Of a stretch of 40,510 nt of DNA, positions 14,702 to 28,029 are shown in pieces; the stretch's first letter is position 1; each line of letters begins with the position of its first letter. The translations under genes and the position numbers were made by a program. The stretch lies in assembly GCA_024276195.1 (NCBI GenBank), contig JAJRXR010000010.1, forward strand, positions 1-40,510. The letters are read 5' to 3'. The notes beneath the pieces were generated by a model that saw nothing but the letters and a program-made list of their open reading frames with translations, did not search any database and had not been told where the DNA came from. This stretch comes from Planctomycetota bacterium. GTDB taxonomy: Bacteria; Planctomycetota; Phycisphaerae; Phycisphaerales; UBA1924.

Positions 14702-14769
14702 CGTTCGTTCTCCCGCCCGTGATGGGTCAGTATCTCATGTCGCTGGCGTACAGGCAATGGGCGCCATGC

Positions 14770-15885
14770 TCAGGGCATGCGGCTGAGCCCGTGCTCGCTC
14801 AGGAACGCCCGATCGCGGTCGGACCGGTCCACGATCCGCGCCACGTCCTCATCGGTGTTCCAGGGCAGGGCCGCCAGCTTGGCCCGGAGTGGCTCCGGGA
14901 ACGCCCTGTTGAGGCGTTCGTGCCTCGGGCGACTCTTCCACATCCGGTGCATCCACAGGTACTGTTCCGGCGCGGCGCGAACCATTTTTTCCACGGCCCT
15001 GCGGTACCAGGCCGTCAGGTAGAACATCGGGTCCTCCTGGCTCCGGTACTCGCCGGCCTTGAGCACGCCCTCGATCTCGATGTGGTAATCCAGGGCGCCC
15101 GGGTGTCGGACCGCGCCCGCGCCCGAGCCGCGCGGCAGGCGCCTGGCCATCCCCGCGATCAGCGTCGCGTCGTGCTCGAGCGCCAGCAGCCCGATGGACT
15201 TGTAGCTGGAGGTCAAGCGCCCAAAGTACGGCACGAACAGCGCCCGGTCGCCCGCGTTCTGGTCGGCGACAAAGGCGGGGGCGCCCTTGCCCTCGCGGAG
15301 GATCTCGGGGAGCTGGTGCATGGCGCCGAACTTATCGAGCAGGATCATGCCGCGCCTGGAGCGAGACTCGCGGACCCAGGTGTCGAGCGGCCGGACATCG
15401 AGCGGGCGGTAGATGCTCTGGACCTTGAATCCGAGCAGGGCGACGGTGAAGCCGAGGACTTCCCAGTTGCCGCAGTGCCCGGTGATGAGGATGGCGGGCT
15501 TGCCGGTGAGCAGGACGTCGATGGCCTCTTTGATATCGCCCAGGCGGATGTGGTGGGGCCAGGCGTCCTCGGAGATGGCGCGCGAGCAGGCGGTCATCTC
15601 GACGCCCAGCTCAAACAAATGCTCGTACGCGCGGATCGCCAGCTCGTGGCGGGCAGGCAGGTCGAGCTCGGGCATGGCCTGCTCGATGTGCCCCATGGCG
15701 CGCTGCACGCGCGTGCGGTTGAACTTGGCCGAGCCGAAGGCGCGCCCGGCCTTGCGGGCGACATCGACCGATGGCCCAAGGCCGGCAACGCCCGGCGCGA
15801 CGAGCGCGCCTCGGATCGCGTAATAGAGCGCCGGGTGGATGACCGCCCGTTGGAGCGGCGTGGGCCCGGCGGGTCGGACGCCCAT
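14770..15885 (-). CDS. LpxL/HtrB-family lipid A late acyltransferase
   Basis: A 371-residue inner-membrane-associated acyltransferase that would add a secondary acyl chain to lipid A or a related lipid. The catalytic HX4E motif is 'HCGNWE' (His137-Glu142). 'RPLDVRPLDTWVRESRSRRGM' corresponds to the family's 'r.~~np.ld..l...R...g' region. 'FVADQNAGDRALFVPYFGR' is the D/Q block, and 'PEQYLWMHRMWKSRP' is the typical C-terminal motif. The gene lies downstream of the coiled-coil gene (39-bp gap) and upstream of the receiver gene. It fits with the O-antigen ligase nearby in implying LPS synthesis. Confidence 0.88.
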   Translation of the reverse strand: MGVRPAGPTPLQRAVIHPALYYAIRGALVAPGVAGLGPSVDVARKAGRAFGSAKFNRTRVQRAMGHIEQAMPELDLPARHELAIRAYEHLFELGVEMTACSRAISEDAWPHHIRLGDIKEAIDVLLTGKPAILITGHCGNWEVLGFTVALLGFKVQSIYRPLDVRPLDTWVRESRSRRGMILLDKFGAMHQLPEILREGKGAPAFVADQNAGDRALFVPYFGRLTSSYKSIGLLALEHDATLIAGMARRLPRGSGAGAVRHPGALDYHIEIEGVLKAGEYRSQEDPMFYLTAWYRRAVEKMVRAAPEQYLWMHRMWKSRPRHERLNRAFPEPLRAKLAALPWNTDEDVARIVDRSDRDRAFLSEHGLSRMP

Positions 15886-15924
15886 GCGGTGGGTCTCGCG
15901 GGTCTGGTTGAGCCGGGAAAGTCT

Positions 15925-17307
15925 CTAGCCGGGGAAGTCGCCGATGAGTGTGCGAAGTCGGTTCTCGTTGAGCACGGGGATCGCGGTGGTCGTCGCGGTG
16001 TCGAAGAGCTGGTCGTAGCGCTCGATGATGCGCTTGCGCCGGAGGTACTCCTCGACGATCTCAACGGGCGAGCCGGTGGTCGGCTCAGGCCCGAGCACGG
16101 GCTTCTCGCCCAGGACGACGAAGTCCAGGTCGCCCGTGATCTCGGTGGTCAGGTCGCCGCCCCAGCGCTGGACGAGGGCCTTGAGATCCTCGCCCTCGAG
16201 CGGGGTGGCCACGCCGTCGCCGTCAACGTCAAAGTTGCCGTAGACCAGGAACTTGTACGTCTTGTTGGGGTCGTAGACCGCGTTGGCGGCGACATCGCCC
16301 TTGACGATCGGGTTCCCGCGGGATTCTTCGATGATCCGCGCCGTGCTGAACCCGTCGTTGATCTGCGTCACCTCCACAACCGCCTTGCCCCGGGGGTAGA
16401 CGCCCGTGACCCGGTCCGGGCGGATGTCCGTCGCGTCGTTGAAGATGGCGAACGTCATGCCCAGGATGACCTTTTCGCCTCGCCCGATCGAGAGCACGAC
16501 CTCGCGCGCCACCGGGTCAACCCGGCGCACCTCGGCGTCGGCCAGCGCCTCCTCGGCCAGCGGGTGCGGGCGGTCGCTCGGGTTCTTGCCCCGAAGCCTC
16601 GCGAGCTGGGCCTGGAGCACGGTCAGCTCGGAACGCTGCTCGGCGATGGTCGTCCGCAGGCGGCGCTGCTCGCTGTCGGCGTCGCCCTGGATGCGATCGA
16701 CCCGCCCGTTCATCTCGGTCTCAAGATCCGCCACACGCTGCCAGACACCCTTGAGGTCGGCGCGCATGGTCCCGACATCGTCGCCCATTATGTCGCCGGC
16801 GATGGCGAACTCGGACTCGATCTCGGCGACCCGGGCCGCCTCGGCCGCGAGCTGCGTGAGCGCTTCCTGGCGGTCGGTCTCGGCCTGGCTCAGGCGGGTT
16901 CCCAGGTCGTCGATCGTGGTGTCGCGGTCGCGGACCATCCCGACGAGCGAGTCGCCCTCGCCCCCGCCGAGTGTGACGATCTGCTCACGCAGGCCCGAGG
17001 CGGTCAGGTCCGCCGAGCCCGGGCCGGCGGCCAGCGTCATGCTCTCGCGCATCTGCGTGAGCAGGTAATCCACCACGCTCTTGCGCTCGTCGTTGGCCTG
17101 CGTCAGCGCCCGGCGCACGCCCTCGCGCTCGCGCTCTGTACCCTTGATGAAGGACTCGGCCTCGGCCTTGAGTTGCGTCTTCTCCTGCTCCGCCTTGGAC
17201 GCGTTGCCGTAGAACACCATCGAGAGCACGAACAGCCCGAGGCAGAGCATGCCCAGGATCGTGATGGTGACGGCGACGCCGACGCTCGCTCCGGTTCGCG
17301 CTGCCAT
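15925..17307 (-). CDS. Single-pass coiled-coil membrane protein of unknown function
   Basis: A 460-residue protein. A membrane helix lies close to the N-terminus (about residues 8-33, 'VAVTITILGMLCLGLFVLSMVFYG'), followed by a long coiled coil (about 34-235) with an interrupted Gly-rich stretch. The C-terminal soluble domain (about 250-400) contains 'VLSIGRGEKVILGMTFAIFN', 'GKAVVEVTQINDGFSTARI' and 'PIVKGDVAAN'. This resembles the beta-barrel 'FlgT_C/secretin-associated' type region seen in planctomycete envelope proteins. The ATG at 17307 has GGAG 7 nt upstream. The open frame continues a further 57 codons upstream from 17478, so an N-terminal extension cannot be excluded. Confidence 0.75.
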   Translation of the reverse strand: MAARTGASVGVAVTITILGMLCLGLFVLSMVFYGNASKAEQEKTQLKAEAESFIKGTEREREGVRRALTQANDERKSVVDYLLTQMRESMTLAAGPGSADLTASGLREQIVTLGGGEGDSLVGMVRDRDTTIDDLGTRLSQAETDRQEALTQLAAEAARVAEIESEFAIAGDIMGDDVGTMRADLKGVWQRVADLETEMNGRVDRIQGDADSEQRRLRTTIAEQRSELTVLQAQLARLRGKNPSDRPHPLAEEALADAEVRRVDPVAREVVLSIGRGEKVILGMTFAIFNDATDIRPDRVTGVYPRGKAVVEVTQINDGFSTARIIEESRGNPIVKGDVAANAVYDPNKTYKFLVYGNFDVDGDGVATPLEGEDLKALVQRWGGDLTTEITGDLDFVVLGEKPVLGPEPTTGSPVEIVEEYLRRKRIIERYDQLFDTATTTAIPVLNENRLRTLIGDFPG

Positions 17308-17695
17308 AGACAAGCTCCAACTGCGCCAGCGCCGCCCGGCGCCGGGTGTTTCTATCTCTGTCTTCGGAAGGGTCGCCTCCGGGCCCCCCACGATCGCGAG
17401 CGCATCCGCGCCCGCGAAGCCCACCACCGGTACGTCCGGAGGCGGAGCGGGATCCATCCGTGGCCCCGAGGTGAGCAAGTGTCGCCCTCTCCCGGTCGCA
17501 GGTCAACCGAACGCGACGACCACACCCCCGCGTCACGCAACGAGCAACGACCCAAACCGCCCCCTTCGGTCAGCAACTCCGGAGGAAAGGCACGCCAAGT
17601 ATGCCGTACAAATACCAACCCACAAGCCCGGCGCCTCATCTCTCTCTCGGGCTCTCCCTATGCTCAGGGCTGCATCTATTTTACGGAGGATCGCG
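17308..17695. other. 388-bp divergent intergenic region
   Basis: This separates the minus-strand coiled-coil gene from the plus-strand MgtC gene and should hold both promoters. The right part (17600-17690) is less GC-rich and contains TATTTT followed by the GGAGG ribosome site of the MgtC gene. I see no RNA gene or conserved site in it. Confidence 0.5.
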
Positions 17696-18229
17696 TTGAA
17701 CGAGCTTGGCCTATTGACCCTCGCCTCCCTGACGGACACCCCCCTCGGGGGGAGCGACCGCCTGGAGCTGATCGTCCGCTTGCTGTCCGCCGGGGTCATG
17801 GGTGGGCTGCTGGGCTGGGAGCGGTCGCGCTCGGACAAGCCCGCCGACACGCGGACGATGGTGCTCATCGCGGTGGGCGCCGCCGGGTTCGCGGCTCTCG
17901 GGGTCGAGCTCACCCGTGACCACGCGATAGGCGAGACGATCCGGACGGACCCGACGCGGGTGCTCAGCTACATCATCTCGGGCGTCGGGTTCCTGGGCGC
18001 GGGCGCCATTTTGCACTCAAAGAAATCGGTGCGAGGCCTGACGACGGCGTCGGCGATCTGGGCGGTCGCCGCCATCGGAGCCGCCTGCGGGCTGGGCAAG
18101 TTCGAGATCGCCTTCTTCCTCTTCGCCATCGTCTTCGCGCTGCTCTGGACCAACTGGGTCGCGCACGCCATGTTCGGGCAGGCCAATGGCAACGGCAACG
18201 GCAACGGCAACTCCGACAACGCGAAGTAG
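17696..18229 (+). CDS. MgtC/SapB-family membrane protein
   Basis: A 177-residue inner-membrane protein. It has 'LIVRLLSAGVMGGLLGWERSRSDKPADTRTMVLIAVGAAGF' followed by 'DPTRVLSYIISGVGFLGAGAIL' and 'VRGLTTASAIWAVAAIGAACGLG', the signature of the MgtC/SapB N-terminal domain with four to five helices. MgtC proteins are linked to growth under low Mg2+ and inhibit F-type ATPase in some pathogens; the role here is unknown. The C-terminal MgtC domain is absent. The start is set to a TTG at 17696 because GGAGGA lies 6 nt upstream. The C-terminus ends in an Asn-Gly repeat made by a 6-bp DNA repeat. Confidence 0.88.
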   Translation: MNELGLLTLASLTDTPLGGSDRLELIVRLLSAGVMGGLLGWERSRSDKPADTRTMVLIAVGAAGFAALGVELTRDHAIGETIRTDPTRVLSYIISGVGFLGAGAILHSKKSVRGLTTASAIWAVAAIGAACGLGKFEIAFFLFAIVFALLWTNWVAHAMFGQANGNGNGNGNSDNAK

Positions 18230-21296: not shown

Positions 21297-22955
21297 TCAC
21301 ACCCCCCGGTCCGAATCGCCCAGGGCTTCAAGCTCGTCTGCGTACCGCTCGCGCAAGGGCTCGACGACCTCCTTGAGGAACCGCTCGGTCTGCTCGACCG
21401 CCCGCCCGACGTACTTCATCGGGTCCATCAGCCCGCCCCAGTCCAGCTCATGCTTGAGGGCCGGCGTGTGGAACGCGGGGTCGCCATTGAGGCGATCGAG
21501 CAGGTCGTTGTCGAGGCCCTCGTCCTTGACGCGCATGCCCGCCGCCTGGGCGTGGACGCGGATGATCTCGTGGTATTCCTGCCTGTCCGCGCCCGCCTTG
21601 ACGCACTCCATCAGGATGTTCTCCGTCGCGAGAAAGGGCAGCTCGGCCATCAGATTGCGCTTCACCATCGCCTCGTGAACAACCAGCCCCGACGCGACCT
21701 GGTGCATCAGGTCCAGCGCGCCATCGAGCGCGAGGAAGGACTCGGGCAGCGACAAGCGCCGGTTGGACGAGTCGTCGAGCGTCCGCTCGAGCCACTGCGT
21801 CGCGGCGGTGTCGTAGGCGTTGCCGACAAGGTTCATCACAAACCGAGTCAGGCCGCAGATCCGCTCGCACTTCATCGGGTTCCGCTTGTACGGCATCGCC
21901 GACGAGCCGATCTGCTTGTCCCCGAACGGCTCGTCGAGCTCCTTGCGGTTGGACAGCAGGCGGATGTCGGTGGCGATCTTGTGGAGGACGGCGGCGATGG
22001 AGGCGAGGTCCGCGAGATACAACGTATCAACGACCCGTGGGTACGTCTGCCCCGTGAGACCAAACGTCCGGTGGCTGATCGTCATCTCAATCTGCGACTT
22101 GAGATAGGCCTCGTATGTGCACTGTTCGAGTCGCGCTACACGCTGCTCCGCTTGCTTGATTTGGGTAGTGTCACCCTCACTTTGTCGTCCTTCTAAGAGC
22201 CGCCGGTGGTCCCTTAGGACTTGATTGCGCCATTCTTCGAAGTCCGCTTCTGTGCGCGGAGTGTCCAGAAGATTCCAGATCGCACGGGCCTCAAACTCAT
22301 CGACACGACTCGCGTCATTGTCGAAGAGCGCCAAGAACGAGGCTTGAGTACCGGTAGCGCCCCGAAATCCGCGAAACATCTGCCAATCGTTATACTTCAC
22401 CTCTAGCCGCTCGCTGTACACGTGATGAAGGGCACAAGCCTGCTCCGCCAAGCGACGACCCAGCGTGGTTGGCTGAGCTGGTTGATAGTGGGTAAAACCC
22501 AGAGTTGGGAGCCGCAGATGTGCTTCGGCAGTGCGACTCATTGCGATTACCACACGTGTGACTTTTTGAACGATCAACTTATGCGCACTGTAGATGAGCA
22601 ACAGATCCGCATTACACACCACATCCTGGCTCGTACACCCTAGATGAATAATCGCCTTTGCCTTGGGCGCGACATCGCCGTACGCGTGGACGTGCGCCAT
22701 CACGTCATGGCGCAAGTCCTTCTCATACCCTGCGGCTCGCTCCATGTCCTCATCAGTCACCTCGACGTGCGCCCGAAGCTCTGCGATCTGCTCGTCGGTG
22801 ATGTCGAGCCCGCACGCCTGCTGCGCCTCGGCGACCGCCAGCCAGATCCTTCGCCACGTCGTGAACTTATGCCTGGGCGACCAGATCCGCAGCATCTCGG
22901 GCGAGGCGTTGCGCGAGGCGAGCGGGCTGGTGTAGGTGTCGTGCGGGTTTGTCAT
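21297..22955 (-). CDS. purB: Adenylosuccinate lyase with a central insertion
   Basis: PurB catalyses two fumarate-releasing steps in purine synthesis (SAICAR to AICAR and adenylosuccinate to AMP). Of 552 residues, the fumarase/aspartase fold is clear: 'HDVMAHVHAYGDVAPKA' (84-100), 'IIHLGCTSQD' (102-111), 'TLGFTHYQPAQPTT' (151-164) and the signature 'GSSAMPYKRNPMKCER'. Usual family length is near 475. The excess is a segment of about 70 residues (225-295, bases about 22070-22280), charged and probably helical, between 'RVDEF' and 'TFGLTGQTYPRVVD'. Bases about 22070-22670 have visibly lower GC than both ends of the gene. The ATG at 22955 has GAGGA upstream, touching a REP palindrome. Confidence 0.95.
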   Translation of the reverse strand: MTNPHDTYTSPLASRNASPEMLRIWSPRHKFTTWRRIWLAVAEAQQACGLDITDEQIAELRAHVEVTDEDMERAAGYEKDLRHDVMAHVHAYGDVAPKAKAIIHLGCTSQDVVCNADLLLIYSAHKLIVQKVTRVVIAMSRTAEAHLRLPTLGFTHYQPAQPTTLGRRLAEQACALHHVYSERLEVKYNDWQMFRGFRGATGTQASFLALFDNDASRVDEFEARAIWNLLDTPRTEADFEEWRNQVLRDHRRLLEGRQSEGDTTQIKQAEQRVARLEQCTYEAYLKSQIEMTISHRTFGLTGQTYPRVVDTLYLADLASIAAVLHKIATDIRLLSNRKELDEPFGDKQIGSSAMPYKRNPMKCERICGLTRFVMNLVGNAYDTAATQWLERTLDDSSNRRLSLPESFLALDGALDLMHQVASGLVVHEAMVKRNLMAELPFLATENILMECVKAGADRQEYHEIIRVHAQAAGMRVKDEGLDNDLLDRLNGDPAFHTPALKHELDWGGLMDPMKYVGRAVEQTERFLKEVVEPLRERYADELEALGDSDRGV

Positions 22956-22964
22956 CTTCCAATC

Positions 22965-23079
22965 CTCGTGGCACGGGCGTCCCGCCCGTATCTCCGTTCC
23001 TCTGCCTTTCTCCCTCTCACTCCCCAGCCCTTTCGTATCGAGCAATGGAAGACACGGGCGGGGACGCCCGTGCCACGAG
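22965..23079. repeat. Inverted REP pair (GTGG type) between leuS and purB
   Basis: The left copy (22965-22989) and right copy (23052-23079) are inverted relative to each other. Each reads CTCGTGG then an arm CACGGGCG, a TCC or TCCC centre and the complementary arm. They are 62 bp apart. The left copy ends directly at the purB ribosome site and the right copy lies 9 bp from the leuS stop. This is a BIME-like unit, of a different sequence family from the REPs inside leuS. Confidence 0.85.
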
Positions 23080-23088
23080 TGAACGGAG

Positions 23089-26000
23089 TCAGTTCGCGAC
23101 GATATTCACAAGCCGCCCCGGCACCACGATCACCTTGCGCACCGTCTTGCCCGCGATCAAATCCTTGATCTTGGGATCGTCCAGGGCCGCGGATTCCAGG
23201 GTTTTTTGGTCCGCGTCCGCCGGGACGGTCACCCGGCTTCGCACCTTGCCCAGGATCTGCACCGGGATCTCGATGGTGTCGCTGACAAGCATCGCCGCGT
23301 CGAACTCGGGCCAGGCGCTGTGCGCGATCGAGCCGCTGGACTCAACCCGCCCGAGCTTGTGCCACAGCTCCTCGCCCATGTGCGGCGCGAACGGCGCCAG
23401 GACCCGCGCAAACCGATCAATCTGCGACCGCGTCAGCGATGCGGGCATCACGCCGCCGCTGCCCTGCGCGGGCGTGGCGGTGTTGACAAACTCGATCATC
23501 GCCGCGATCGCGGTGTTGAAGCTCAGGCGCTCGATGTCCTCGCCGACCTTGGCGATCGCCTTGTGCAGCGCCCGCTCGATCTCCTCAGACTCGCTCGGCG
23601 CCACTTTCAACTCGCCCGAGTCCTCATCCACGCACAGGCGCCAGGCGCGTTGCAGGAAGCGGTACAGCCCGATGGTGTCCTTGGTGTTCCAAGGCTTGCT
23701 CGCTTCGAGCGGGCCCATGTACATCTCGTAGAGGCGCATCGTGTCGGCGCCGTACTCCGCGATCACGTCGTCCGGGTTGACAACGTTTTTGAGCGACTTG
23801 CTCATCTTCGCGGTGATCTGCGCGACGGGCTCGCCCGTCGCGATCTCGATGTACTCGCCCGCGCCCCGCTCCTCGACCTCGTCCACCGGCACGAGGCTCT
23901 TGTCGCCCCGCTGGTACGCGAAGCTCGTGATCAGCCCCTGGTGGAACAGCTTCTGGTACGGCTCGGGCGTCGAGACGTGCCCCAGATCAAACAAAACCTT
24001 GTGCCAGAAGCGGGCATAGAGCAAATGCAGCACCGCGTGCTCGGAGCCGCCGATGTACAGGTCAACCCCGCCTTGCGTAGATCGGCTCTCCGAGCCGATC
24101 GTCTCCCTCGCGCCCCGCGACTCCCCAACACACACATCCCCGTGCAGAAACACACCCGCATACGCCGACGCCTTGCCAACCAACCCCGCCTCCACCGGGT
24201 TCCCCACGATGTACCGGACAAACTCCCCGAACCACCGCTCATCGCGCACCACATGGTCAAAGCGATCGGCCTGCCACAGACTGCCATCCGCGCCGCTCTC
24301 TGTGTTGATCTGGCGCGCCGAGTATCGCTTGACGCTGCTGACCAGTTCCCCCAGCGTGTGCCCCTCGAACGGGCGCACGAGCCAGTGGACATGGTCGGGC
24401 ATGACACACGCGCTGTACACACGGCAGCGTTCGCCATCAAAGTGCAAGAGCGAATCCAGCACCTCCTGGCGCTCCGGCTCGCTGAGCTGGCGCCCCTCCG
24501 CCGTTCGCCAGGTCACGAAGTACGTCGCGCCCGGGAGCTCGAAGTGGGGCAGGTTTCGGGTGGTCGCGATCAGGTCTTGCGCCGGGCCATACTCGCCCGG
24601 GGGGTACGGGTCTCGGGGGATGAAGCCCGCCGCGTTGATCGCACCGGGGGGGAGTGAATCCAAGGCGGATGGGGGGTGTCCATGCGCATTCGGATCGGCT
24701 CGGAGAGCCGATCTACCCATCCAGTACCGCTCGCTGTCCTCATCGACCAGGCGTGTGTCGCTGGCGCCGCAGTAGCGCAGGTGGTACCAGCACGAGCCCG
24801 CCCAGCCGGGCATGGTGTTTGTCTCGCGCGTCATCGGCGTCGCAGGATCAAGCCCCGCAACCCCCGCCTCGCCCGCGGTCGTCTTGAGCCACTCCGTCGC
24901 CTTGCCCAGCAGCGGCTGCGGCTCGTCCGACTCGACCGGCTGATAGTCCGTCATCTTCGGCAGCCGCACCGGCAGCGCGCTGTCGCCCACGGCATAGTGA
25001 TTCCCGCGCGCGTCATACACGATCGGGAACGGCTCGCCCCAGTACCGCTGCCTGCTGAACAGCCAGTCGCGCAGGCGATAGTTCACACGCCCGGCGCCGA
25101 TCCGCTTCGACTCCATCCACTCGATCATCTTCGCCTTCGCCTCGCGGACACCGAGCCCGTCGAGGAACGACGAGTTGATCGCGGCCCCGTCGCCGGCGAA
25201 CGCCTTGCCATCGAAGCCCGCCGGGGGCTGGACCGTGCGGACGATCGGCAGCCCAAACTTCTCGGCAAAGTCCCAGTCGCGCTGGTCCTGCCCGGGCACC
25301 GCCATGATCGCGCCCGTGCCATAACTCATCAGCACATAATCACTCGTCCAGACCGGGATCTGTTGTTCTGTCACCGGATTGAGCGCGTACACGCCCGTGA
25401 ACACGCCGGTCTTGTCCTGGAACTCCTGGCGCTCGATGTCCGTCCGGTTCTTGGCCCACTCGACATAGCCGCGCAGCCGCTCGGTCTCGCCGCCGTTGCG
25501 CGCGTCGTCGATCGCCATCTCGACGAGCGGGTGCTCCGGCGCCACGACCATGTACGTCGCACCGAACGCCGTGTCGGGGCGCGTCGTGAACACCCGCAGC
25601 GTCTCGCCCGAGGCCTCGCCCTCACCATCAAGCAACGGAAACCCGACCTCGGCGCCCTCGGACCGCCCGATCCACTCGCTCTGCTGCACCTTGGTCGAGT
25701 TGGGCCAGTCCACCGTCGCCAGGTCGTCGTGCAACCGGTCGGCGTACGCCGTGATCCGCAGCATCCACTGGCGCAAGGGCTTGCGCAACACCGGGAACCC
25801 CCCCCGCTCGCTCTTGCCGTCGATGACCTCCTCGTTGGCCAGGGCCGTGCCCAGCTTGGGGCACCAGTTGACCGTCTGCTGGCCCACATATGCAAGGCGG
25901 TACGAGTCCACGATCGCGCGCCGCGTCTCATCATCAAGCGACGCCCACGCCCCCGCGTCCGTCCCCCCGGGCAGGTCGCCCGCCCCGCCGTACTCCGCCG

Positions 26001-26616
26001 CCGCCGGGTTCAGGCGCACCGTCCGCGACCCCGCCTCAAACTCCGCGACCAGCTCGTCGATCGGGCGGGCCTTGTCCGCCTCGGGATCAAACCAGGACCG
26101 GTACAGGCGCAGGAAGATCCACTGCGTCCATTTGTAATAGTCCTCGTCGATAGTCCCGAACTCGCGGGACCAGTCGTAGCAGAAGCCAAATCTTTTAAGC
26201 TGCCTTCGGAAGTTGTCGATCGCGGTCCGCGTCGTCACCTCGGGATGAACCCCGGTCTGGATCGCGTACTGCTCGGCCGGCAGCCCGAACGCGTCCCACC
26301 CCATCGGGTGCAGCACGTTGAACCCCTGCATCCGCTTGTACCGCGCGATGATGTCCGTCGCCGTGTACCCCTCCGGGTGCCCCACGTGCAGCCCCGCGCC
26401 CGACGGGTACGGGAACATGTCCAGCACGTAGTACTTCGGGCGGCTCGGTACGAACGCCGGATCGCCCGGGTTGGGCTGGACGAACACGCCCTTGTCGTCC
26501 CACCACGCCTGCCAGCGCGTCTCGATCGTCTCGGCCAGCGCTGCGGTGTATCGGTGCACTGGACCAGCGGGGGTCCGGGCTTGCTCGCTCTGCTCGGATG
26601 CTGTCTGATCGCTCAC
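23089..26616 (-). CDS. leuS: Leucyl-tRNA synthetase with an in-frame RAYT transposase domain
   Basis: LeuRS charges tRNA-Leu. LeuRS elements are intact on both sides of an insert: HVGH (77-80), the editing domain ('TTRPDTAFGATYMVVAPEHPL', 'GTGAIMAVPG.DQRD'), 'MPGWAGSCWYHLRY', then 'VDLYIGGSEHAVLHLLYARFWH', KMSKS (about 934) and an anticodon-binding region. Between 'ERYWM' and 'GVDLYIGG' lie about 213 extra residues (about 634-847). They include a tyrosine transposase of the RAYT group: 'LPHFELPGATYFVTWR', 'ACVMPDHVHWLV' (HUH motif), 'LWQADRFDHVVRDE' and 'VRYIVGNPVEAGLV' (catalytic Tyr). The whole 1175-codon frame has no stop. Without the insert the length is about 962, normal for LeuRS. The GTG start has AGGAG upstream. 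Confidence 0.93.
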   Translation of the reverse strand: MSDQTASEQSEQARTPAGPVHRYTAALAETIETRWQAWWDDKGVFVQPNPGDPAFVPSRPKYYVLDMFPYPSGAGLHVGHPEGYTATDIIARYKRMQGFNVLHPMGWDAFGLPAEQYAIQTGVHPEVTTRTAIDNFRRQLKRFGFCYDWSREFGTIDEDYYKWTQWIFLRLYRSWFDPEADKARPIDELVAEFEAGSRTVRLNPAAAEYGGAGDLPGGTDAGAWASLDDETRRAIVDSYRLAYVGQQTVNWCPKLGTALANEEVIDGKSERGGFPVLRKPLRQWMLRITAYADRLHDDLATVDWPNSTKVQQSEWIGRSEGAEVGFPLLDGEGEASGETLRVFTTRPDTAFGATYMVVAPEHPLVEMAIDDARNGGETERLRGYVEWAKNRTDIERQEFQDKTGVFTGVYALNPVTEQQIPVWTSDYVLMSYGTGAIMAVPGQDQRDWDFAEKFGLPIVRTVQPPAGFDGKAFAGDGAAINSSFLDGLGVREAKAKMIEWMESKRIGAGRVNYRLRDWLFSRQRYWGEPFPIVYDARGNHYAVGDSALPVRLPKMTDYQPVESDEPQPLLGKATEWLKTTAGEAGVAGLDPATPMTRETNTMPGWAGSCWYHLRYCGASDTRLVDEDSERYWMGRSALRADPNAHGHPPSALDSLPPGAINAAGFIPRDPYPPGEYGPAQDLIATTRNLPHFELPGATYFVTWRTAEGRQLSEPERQEVLDSLLHFDGERCRVYSACVMPDHVHWLVRPFEGHTLGELVSSVKRYSARQINTESGADGSLWQADRFDHVVRDERWFGEFVRYIVGNPVEAGLVGKASAYAGVFLHGDVCVGESRGARETIGSESRSTQGGVDLYIGGSEHAVLHLLYARFWHKVLFDLGHVSTPEPYQKLFHQGLITSFAYQRGDKSLVPVDEVEERGAGEYIEIATGEPVAQITAKMSKSLKNVVNPDDVIAEYGADTMRLYEMYMGPLEASKPWNTKDTIGLYRFLQRAWRLCVDEDSGELKVAPSESEEIERALHKAIAKVGEDIERLSFNTAIAAMIEFVNTATPAQGSGGVMPASLTRSQIDRFARVLAPFAPHMGEELWHKLGRVESSGSIAHSAWPEFDAAMLVSDTIEIPVQILGKVRSRVTVPADADQKTLESAALDDPKIKDLIAGKTVRKVIVVPGRLVNIVAN
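24077..24100 (+). repeat. REP, GTAG plus palindrome (left end)
   Basis: GTAG is followed by arms ATCGGCTC / GAGCCGAT around TCC. This is the classical REP architecture recognised by RAYT proteins. Confidence 0.9.
24693..24716 (-). repeat. REP, GTAG plus palindrome (right end, inverted)
   Basis: This is identical to the left REP but on the opposite strand. The GTAG begins at 24716, one base after the first G of the codon that follows the LeuRS 'YWM' sequence. Confidence 0.9.
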
Positions 26617-26679
26617 GCCAAGGCTCCTCGGTCCATGGGGCGACTCTAGAGCGTGTTCGTCGCCGGCGGAGCCTTCGAC

Positions 26680-28029
26680 CTACATCTCCGGGTCGCCCGC
26701 AACGGGTCTCGCCCCCCCTCCGCCCCGCCTGCGGAACCACAGCGAGACGAGCGCCAGCGCGATCACCCCCGCGTAGATCGCCCCGATCCTCGCCAGCATC
26801 GCCCGCTCGTTGTCCCACAGGTGCCCGAGCAGCAGCGCAATCGTCACCACGCCCACGCCCATGCCCACGACGACCACCACCGGGCGCGCCTTGGTCAGGC
26901 GCCGGAGCTTGAGGTTGGCGACCGCCACGCCCAGCGAGACAACCAGAAACGTCAGGCTCGAAAACGCGGCGATCGTGTCGAGCGAGTCAAACGCCGTAAA
27001 CAACGCCCCGGCCCCGCCCAGCGTGCAGACCGCGACCACGGGTACGTCCGCACCCTTGGACCGAACCGAGAACACCCGCAGCATAACCCGCTCTCGCCCC
27101 ATCTCGTCCATCATCCGCGACGCGCCGAACGAGGTCGCGTTGATCGCCGACGCCGTCGCCATCAGCGCCGCAACCCCGACAAGCACACGCCCGGCATTGC
27201 CCAGCGTCGGCTCGGCCGCCGCCGCCAGCGCGTACTCCCCGCTGGCGACGATCTCGTCGTACCCCAGGTTCCCCACCGCGACGACCGCGATCACAAGATA
27301 GATCAGCGTCGTGATCAGCACCGACCCGTAGATCCCGCGCGGGATGTTCCTGTCCGGGTCGCGCGTCTCGCAGACCCCGTTGGTGATGAGCTGAAACCCC
27401 TCGAACGCGACAAAGATCATCGCCCCCGCGACAAACACCGAGCCCACCCCGTGATCGAACACGGGCGTGAGGTGGTCCCGCCGGACCGTGGTCATCCCCG
27501 CGACCCCGAACAGCGCCAGCAGCAGGATCTTGGTGTACACGATCAGGTCTTCAACCCGCCCGCTCGAGCGCGCCCCGAGCAGGTTGACGACCATGAAGAA
27601 GCCGAGCACACTCAGCGAGAGCACGACCCGGACCCGCGCCGACCCGGGGCTGCCGAGCAGGTCGGCGCCGTACGCCCCGAACGTAAACGCGTACAGCGCC
27701 AGCGTCCCGACGTACCCCACCACCACAACCCAGCCGAGAATCCCGCCGATCCACGGCTGCGAGGGGAACGCGCGCTCGAGGTAGGTAAAGCTGGCGCCAT
27801 CATTTCGCAGCGCCAGCGCGAGGCAGATGTAGGAGTACGAGGTGAGCAGGGCGATGATCCCGCCGAGCGCAAACGCCAGCGGCGCCGCGTGCCCGCTGAT
27901 CCCCACCGCGATCCCGAGCACGGAAAAAATCCCGCCCCCGATCATCCCGCCAACCCCGATCGCGATCAGCTCCGGAAGACCCAGATCCTGGCGCGTGGTA
28001 GACGAGACCTCCGGGTTCCGCTCGCTCAC
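26680..28029 (-). CDS. APC-superfamily amino acid permease
   Basis: A 449-residue inner-membrane transporter with about 12 helices. Helix 1 carries the APC signature 'GVGGMIGGGIFSVLG' (unwound substrate-binding region), followed by 'PLAFALGGIIALLTSYSY' and 'FVAFEGFQLITNGVCETRDPDRNIPRGI', the conserved helix 6 to loop segment. It probably exchanges or imports an amino acid or polyamine; specificity cannot be read from the sequence. The GTG start at 28029 is preceded by GGAGGAA. It lies 63 bp upstream of leuS on the same strand. Confidence 0.9.
   Translation of the reverse strand: MSERNPEVSSTTRQDLGLPELIAIGVGGMIGGGIFSVLGIAVGISGHAAPLAFALGGIIALLTSYSYICLALALRNDGASFTYLERAFPSQPWIGGILGWVVVVGYVGTLALYAFTFGAYGADLLGSPGSARVRVVLSLSVLGFFMVVNLLGARSSGRVEDLIVYTKILLLALFGVAGMTTVRRDHLTPVFDHGVGSVFVAGAMIFVAFEGFQLITNGVCETRDPDRNIPRGIYGSVLITTLIYLVIAVVAVGNLGYDEIVASGEYALAAAAEPTLGNAGRVLVGVAALMATASAINATSFGASRMMDEMGRERVMLRVFSVRSKGADVPVVAVCTLGGAGALFTAFDSLDTIAAFSSLTFLVVSLGVAVANLKLRRLTKARPVVVVVGMGVGVVTIALLLGHLWDNERAMLARIGAIYAGVIALALVSLWFRRRGGGGARPVAGDPEM

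Follow-up and report, generated by a model that had tools for sequence, protein, structure and literature searches.

REPtrons, the closest described relatives of the element reported here, consist of a gene for a HUH-tyrosine transposase (REP-associated tyrosine transposase, RAYT, or TnpAREP) standing between inverted repetitive extragenic palindromes (REPs). They are known from Escherichia coli, Stenotrophomonas and Marinomonas, and the parts of PMC8266576, PMC6006769 and PMC3733652 that deal with them describe the transposase as a separate gene. The palindromes as such can also reside in coding sequence. REPs inside open reading frames (ORFs), those of repair genes and tRNA synthetases included, were published in 2013; like the Rickettsia palindromic elements, these intragenic GTAG/CGTC REPs lie in the ORFs of working genes, and in both cases the inserts are REP-only, the largest being 43-82 amino acids (aa), with no transposase gene described in the pertinent part of that paper (PMC3733652). 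Here we analyze a stretch of 40,510 nucleotides from a Planctomycetota bacterium of the order Phycisphaerales (GenBank assembly GCA_024276195.1, contig JAJRXR010000010.1, positions 1-40,510 of the forward strand; hereafter the window), in which a REPtron is found in frame inside leuS, the gene for leucyl-tRNA synthetase (LeuRS).

The leuS insert shares with the described REPtrons the HUH-tyrosine transposase, the inverted GTAG-type REPs on both sides, the REP-only copies elsewhere in the genome, and the fold of the PDB entry 4er8; it differs from them in that it is in frame inside a synthetase ORF. Nor is it a short palindrome without a gene of its own, as the Rickettsia-type inserts are, whereas eight REP-only ORFs of the same genome are of precisely that kind. 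Inteins with homing endonucleases are a further point of comparison; there, a mobile-element enzyme is translated inside an essential protein, at recurrent sites and with patchy presence in relatives. The leuS insert resembles inteins in being a mobile enzyme within a protein, in its recurrent sites and in its presence and absence among relatives. Unlike them, it seems to remain in the protein and brings a single-strand transposase in place of a homing endonuclease; scans against Pfam and NCBIfam at E 0.001 gave no match to an intein or Hint family. IStrons, i.e., IS605-type elements with group I introns, likewise show that an element of the IS200/IS605 superfamily can be tolerated inside genes. 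In contrast to these, the frame at leuS is open through the element, and no Rfam intron family was found up to E 1 over positions 23000-26700, the one match being at chance level. Among the top-ranked results of searches in the Creative Commons-licensed PubMed Central literature, none described a RAYT that lies within the ORF of a host; subscription journals and preprints were outside the scope of these searches. The element family is known, and its niche, that of a transposase-bearing element lying repeatedly and in frame in conserved enzymes, is the new part.

A REPtron in the reading frame of leuS

The chimeric ORF occupies positions 23089-26616 of the minus strand; it starts with GTG, encodes 1175 aa and contains no internal stop. 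Its N-terminal LeuRS part (residues 1-633; 24718-26616, minus strand) includes the HVGH motif (HxGH) and the CP1 editing domain, and its C-terminal LeuRS part (residues 850-1175 and the stop codon; 23089-24069, minus strand) includes GVDLYIGG, KMSKS and the anticodon-binding domain. The LeuRS motifs HVGH, TTRPDT, VDLYIGG and KMSKS have all been preserved, and the host is identified as a bacterial LeuRS by the NCBIfam model leuS_bact (TIGR00396; 935.8 bits against a cut-off of 548.4). When the chimera was compared with the PDB by phmmer, residues 241-633 and 850-1174 were aligned with residues 148-530 and 531-876, respectively, of the LeuRS from T. thermophilus (1h3n). Because the two aligned blocks adjoin there, the insert lies between the consecutive residues 530 and 531 of that structure, in a loop ahead of VDLYIGG whose length varies across the family. 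The spacing from YWM to VDLY is accordingly 217 residues in the chimera, versus 4 and 9 in its congeners G200 and G171.

Between the two LeuRS parts lies the complete insert, 640 bp from GTAG to CTAC (24077-24716, minus strand). The two ends, of 24 bp each, read GTAGATCGGCTCTCCGAGCCGATC and GATCGGCTCGGAGAGCCGATCTAC, the second being an exact inverted copy of the first. As single-stranded DNA, either end forms a hairpin with a 9-bp stem and a 3-nt loop, and none of 200 shuffled sequences folds equally well. The left REP hairpin (24693-24716, minus strand), a GTAG tag followed by the palindrome, is read in frame as RSALRAD; the right REP hairpin (24077-24100, minus strand), which ends in CTAC, is read as IGSESRST. 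The RAYT core in between (24160-24546, minus strand) is recognized by the NCBIfam model REP_Tyr_transpos (NF047646) at chimera residues 691-819, with 88.3 bits against a cut-off of 80. It contains HVH at residues 742-744 and the catalytic tyrosine in YIVGNP from residue 802, and both histidines and the tyrosine are invariant in a 12-row alignment. An arrangement of this kind, GTAG...CTAC around the transposase, is the REPtron layout given for TnpAREP in the relevant parts of PMC3733652 and PMC8266576. We identify the insert as a REPtron, in which two inverted REP hairpins enclose the gene for a HUH-tyrosine transposase.

The original prediction, made from the sequence of the locus, had placed an in-frame RAYT within leuS, in the loop ahead of VDLYIGG and with bounds at 24077 and 24716. 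The open frame, the LeuRS motifs on both sides and the HVH and tyrosine of the insert bear out the first point, the length-variable loop and the break in 1h3n the second. The bounds coincide with the outer ends of the two inverted hairpins, which that prediction did not mention; its identification of the transposase was correct but incomplete, in that a whole REPtron is present.

The structural comparisons agree with this assignment. The entry 4er8 (TnpArep) was the first match of our profile A2 (E 2.5e-11), and 4er8_A was the top Foldseek match of a model of the insert alone (E 1e-9, template-modeling score 0.66 by target). In this model, 124 of 216 residues have a predicted local distance difference test value (pLDDT) of at least 90, with the core above 90, and the stretch ahead of the core is predicted to be disordered (pLDDT below 50). 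The RAYT is not a separate gene, as no stop interrupts the frame between one host part and the other. The sole in-frame ATG upstream of the HVH motif is the methionine of VMPDHVH; GTG and TTG codons are present. The REP of this insert (type A) is free of stops in five of its six frames, only the G-TAG phase giving one. In GC content the insert (66.5%) is close to the host part (66.8%), with values at third codon positions of 0.80 and 0.90, respectively.

The chimera is the single place over the TIGR00396 cut-off in its genome (G000; 3.04 Mb, 88 contigs, 91% complete), i.e., no second leuS was found there. Six weaker matches to the leuS profile fall in other frames, valS and metG frames included. 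This sole-copy status argues that the chimera would itself carry out LeuRS aminoacylation.

Recurrence in other genes, genomes and phyla

Seven RAYT matches were found in this genome, and one of the four listed has its own frame, of 173 aa. In valS, a RAYT lies in frame between copies of a second REP, on a contig (C7) that ends soon after the insert; in rdgB (contig C39), another lies in frame between copies of a third REP. These two are the nearest relatives of the leuS RAYT.

Across the order, NF047646 matched 100 of 151 genomes, and all 30 listed relative loci with open frames of at least 360 residues were followed up. In 21 of these the RAYT is inside valS, leuS, rdgB or miaA, with host sequence on both sides in 20; in the other one (L083) only the N-terminal half of rdgB is present before the contig ends. 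At the remaining nine long-frame loci (L091-L099) a fusion was rejected on sight, and thus a long open frame alone is no evidence of fusion. By hand count among the matches listed, embedded RAYTs amount to at least 22 of the 107 matches over the cut-off, in at least 19 of the 151 genomes.

The insertion sites recur. In the eight valS chimeras, the left family match ends at profile positions 365-394 and the right one starts at 374-378, and the leuS inserts are found at two sites of TIGR00396, approximately 233-240 and 520-523. The insert is at the VDLY site in two of the nine leuS chimeras and at the CP1 site in the other seven, and a hidden Markov model confirmed the RAYT in every one of them. 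In 17 relatives, namely eight genomes with valS chimeras and nine with leuS chimeras, the chimera is the sole valS or leuS over the family cut-off.

When named genomes were scanned with the alignment A1, 366 relatives were confirmed; we retained the best 80, chosen by the similarity of the RAYT and not by its frame. Forty-seven of them are in long frames; 39 of these were scanned for the host, eight (L172, L174, L181, L188, L201, L203, L206 and L209) being outside that scan, and a named host family was obtained for 35. The hosts are alaS (7), thrS (4), metH (4), recG (3), rdgB (3), leuS (2) and cca (2) and, once each, ileS, miaA, purH, priA, a RarA-type ATPase, L-threonylcarbamoyladenylate synthase, yoaA, ispG, hsdR and a DUF1156 protein. 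No host family was found at E 1e-18 for L137, L183 and L200. At one locus (L144) the host domain is not split but follows the RAYT, and at another (L157) the end of the contig is reached ahead of the second half of alaS. The named-genome loci include some from Planctomycetota, Verrucomicrobiota, Kiritimatiellales and a metagenome-assembled genome of Chlorobium, and one from a culture-collection strain, Rubritalea marina DSM 17716 (L148, NZ_KB899256.1), where the RAYT is in frame inside metH. Five kinds of tRNA synthetase serve as hosts: LeuRS, ValRS, AlaRS, ThrRS and IleRS. The original prediction had regarded a RAYT within a synthetase as unusual; the insertion is not an isolated one, given the in-frame recurrence in valS, rdgB, leuS (at three sites), alaS, thrS, recG, metH and others.

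Among close relatives, filled and empty sites are found side by side. The chimera was matched in all 121 genomes of the family, and three of the 30 leuS loci listed contain a RAYT (G000, G197 and G036), in each case at the VDLY site. This site is empty in the congeners G171 (YWM-GPGEEGRGG-VDLY) and G200 (YWM-GGGG-VDLY); a third congener, G222 (60% complete), gave a weak match only at leuS. G000 and G197 differ in the phase in which the left REP at the VDLY site is read, and the corresponding fork of the tree is open. For valS, the site is filled in G171 and empty in G200, and both states are also found within further genera (G122 versus G195 and G219; G113 and G092 versus G107; G068 versus G211), one genus having both members filled (G101 and G212). 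These valS calls rest on match spans, the sequences having then been read for G171, G092 and G212; the valS match of G107 contains a stop. For rdgB, all three congeners (G000, G171 and G200) are filled, apparently with the same REP type. Because the patterns at leuS, valS and rdgB differ, the three insertions of G000 have different histories.

REPs without a transposase are numerous in the same genome. The core of the type A palindrome occurs at 31 places (at most one mismatch), versus none for a reversed-pattern control, and a longer pattern at 26 places; for the second REP type (type B), 94 matches were found (at most two mismatches), versus 13 for the control. Type A inserts are found inside eight enzyme frames, which include metG, clpB, an mmdA-like carboxylase, uvrA, serS, carB, gltX and fumarylacetoacetase, and other type A palindromes are outside such frames. 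In metG (L024:4636-5716, contig C81), four type A palindromes are in the coding region and three are just 5' of the likely start. In carB (L029:514-4314, contig C55), a single open frame contains a type A pair and, elsewhere, two type B palindromes. Six type A palindromes at L031:2833-3170 (contig C34) are clustered without a reported ORF of at least 400 aa that contains them, and are apparently an intergenic REP cluster. In the window, a type B copy with one mismatch (22972-22990) falls in the predicted N-terminus of an adenylosuccinate-lyase-like ORF (21297-23045) that adjoins leuS, the true start of which is probably downstream of the REP. Also in the window, a 1066-aa open frame (14719-17919, plus strand) has no Pfam match at E 1e-10 and may be either spurious or an unknown large protein.

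Phylogeny and selection of the embedded transposases

To compare embedded and free-standing RAYTs, we used a quick tree of 135 sequences (61 embedded, 74 free) over 144 columns, in which many forks are unresolved. L131 and L180 (the same loci as L087 and L086), L095, L096 and RAYT matches of fewer than 110 profile positions were left out; L137 was labeled as free, and L183, L200 and L209 as embedded without a named host. Mapped on this tree, the host labels require 32 changes, versus a mean of 59.9 when shuffled, and none of 200 shuffles was as low; the embedded and free states require 15 changes, versus a shuffled mean of 44.7. The hosts of type recG were clustered no more than expected by chance. 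One clade with a support of 96 in the Shimodaira-Hasegawa-like approximate likelihood-ratio test comprises 17 RAYTs in alaS, thrS, recG, metH and priA, and another, with a support of 99, combines leuS and hsdR hosts. Since supported clades mix host genes, host switching is visible.

Inverted repeats that exceed the 99th percentile of mismatched-flank pairs flank 45 of the 61 embedded RAYTs, versus 2 of 183 controls. The tags of these REPs differ among the embedded loci (L070-L090 and L131-L210). GTAG is found at the leuS VDLY site, in miaA and at L132; GTGG in many valS and several rdgB loci, in purH and in priA; and a GGGGAGC-like tag in most alaS and thrS loci. Whereas GTAG includes a TAG and so gives a stop in one phase, GTGG does not, and may be suited to being translated.

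In the RAYT part, the proportion of non-synonymous differences (pN) is below that of synonymous differences (pS) in all 15 pairs compared (NG86; 11 and 4 pairs, which share members). Between the rdgB RAYTs of G000 and G171, for example, the non-synonymous divergence (dN) is 0.11 and the synonymous divergence (dS) is 0.78.

Competing explanations and significance

We consider it probable, at roughly 0.7, that REPtron lineages have adapted to live inside host coding sequences, where they are translated as an internal domain. The full proposition goes further, to an intragenic, translational class of transposon that enters conserved enzymes, most of all aminoacyl-tRNA synthetases, at loops that tolerate it, that has no expression signals of its own, and that spreads among the host genes and the species of several phyla, in an intein-like niche without splicing; taken jointly, these points stand only a little above even odds.

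According to this proposal, a REPtron landing would persist if it were in the sense orientation, in frame, and in a conserved enzyme at a loop that tolerates it. The ribosome would read host, REP, RAYT, REP and host as one polypeptide, presumably uncleaved and with both activities intact. The element, which by its sequence appears to lack expression signals, would need no promoter, start codon or stop codon of its own; instead, the host enzyme would provide expression and shield the RAYT frame from decay. Because a frameshift or nonsense mutation in the RAYT would destroy the host enzyme, it would be purged. The REPs, being nearly free of stops, would serve as linkers, and the transposase would fold as a domain of its own. 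TnpAREP cleaves single-stranded REPs, the tetranucleotide guiding it to CT or CA, as a part of PMC8266576 describes. By analogy, the host-fused transposase may still act on REPs, moving by single-strand cleavage at the hairpins, and may thereby seed REP-only copies and, rarely, whole REPtrons.

A number of observations weigh against this proposal. Only 22 of the 107 matches over the cut-off, by the hand count given above, are shown to be embedded. Among the embedded RAYTs, 16 of 61 fail the flanking-repeat test, and 39 of the 74 free rows pass it, so that flanking REPs are a property of REPtrons and not of embedding. An ATG is present ahead of the RAYT core in 8 of the 45 elements with passing ends, and GTG or TTG starts are possible. 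On the starred branches of the tree alone, no more than one origin need be assumed for each host label, and no more than five changes between the free and embedded states. At the filled and empty sites, gain and clean loss are indistinguishable. Several dS values are saturated, and in the rdgB pair from G000 and G171 the RAYT and its host have diverged about equally (dS 0.78 and 0.69), from which it follows that this RAYT was inherited together with its host and has not moved recently. A model of the whole chimera, computed from a 22-row alignment, gave no confident fold for the LeuRS part (mean pLDDT 51.5), in contrast to the confident core of the insert alone. The genome of the leuS chimera is a draft in 88 contigs. 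Lastly, the proposal is built on sequence.

The alternative that survives best, which we nevertheless judge unlikely, is that REPtrons land anywhere, and that those in frame in important genes are simply the ones that survive, without any adaptation to this niche. In the 45 elements with passing ends, the left arm falls in the three codon phases in 16, 15 and 14 cases, and the insert length modulo 3 is 0, 1 and 2 in 13, 14 and 18, counts that are approximate because the heuristic for the arm ends can overrun the REP. As all phases are represented, the element does not impose the frame; most likely it is imposed by selection on the host, i.e., after insertion, just as this alternative would have it. 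The REP-only inserts scattered over eight enzymes of G000 and the many free-standing RAYTs in the same clades point in the same direction, as does the locus L137:3744-6701. There, the RAYT splits a DUF1156-like gene of a probably dispensable type, whose upstream part is in a different frame and which undergoes more frame changes downstream; this also counts against the proposal of adapted lineages. L137 is the only such frame-broken split among the 74 free rows, the two surveys being mixed and the check covering host genes known from them. On the other side, embedded RAYTs cluster on the tree (with 15 changes rather than 44.7, of which the starred branches force only the five mentioned), the sites in valS and leuS recur, and 37 of the 45 elements have no ATG from the left REP up to the RAYT core.

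Less likely again is domestication, whereby the RAYT would be a working part of the host enzyme, e.g., a nucleic-acid-binding or regulatory domain, to the benefit of the host. The excess of synonymous change in the RAYT and the retention of the rdgB RAYT in three congeners are what domestication would predict, and many of the hosts act on tRNA, DNA or nucleotides. Yet congeners manage without the RAYT, the hosts are as diverse as MetH, PurH and HsdR, the REP pairs are kept, and the valS RAYTs L070 and L081 group with the leuS/miaA lineage and not with the other valS RAYTs (supports 94 and 89). The original prediction had offered a choice between domestication and a recent tolerated insertion. 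Domestication of single copies and passive tolerance survive as rivals, but the choice was too narrow in view of the presence and absence among congeners, the mixed-host clades and the purifying selection, which fit mobile lineages resident in coding sequences.

We think it improbable that a working enzyme arises only once the insert has been eliminated, whether by protein splicing, proteolysis, IStron-like RNA splicing or bypassing by the ribosome from one hairpin to the other. In principle, the boundaries could be marked by the REP hairpins, the stretch ahead of the RAYT core may, from its model, be disordered, and in L137 the RAYT is out of frame with the upstream part of the host. The scans described above revealed no intein, Hint or intron family, however, and removal needs no open frame, yet L137 is the only one of the 74 free rows that splits a host gene known here. 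Finally, an assembly chimera or a pseudogene, which a draft genome that is 91% complete and in 88 contigs might suggest, is very improbable given the like chimeras in many independent genomes, two of which (G061 and G068) are single contigs, and given the open frame, the catalytic motifs and pN below pS.

A transposon would be expected either to disrupt genes or to stay out of them. The transposase described here seems to persist as a translated domain of enzymes that the cell can hardly lose. Such proteins have previously been set aside; in a survey of TnpAY1 transposases, a few unexpectedly long proteins were dropped as gene fusions or annotation errors, as stated in a part of PMC6006769. 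The metH-RAYT of R. marina DSM 17716 makes the proposal that REPtron lineages have adapted to host coding sequences directly testable in a cultured strain. If true, this proposal would hint at how RAYTs maintain themselves at low copy number, would show a route by which large domains enter essential enzymes, and would point to sites in many proteins that naturally tolerate insertions.

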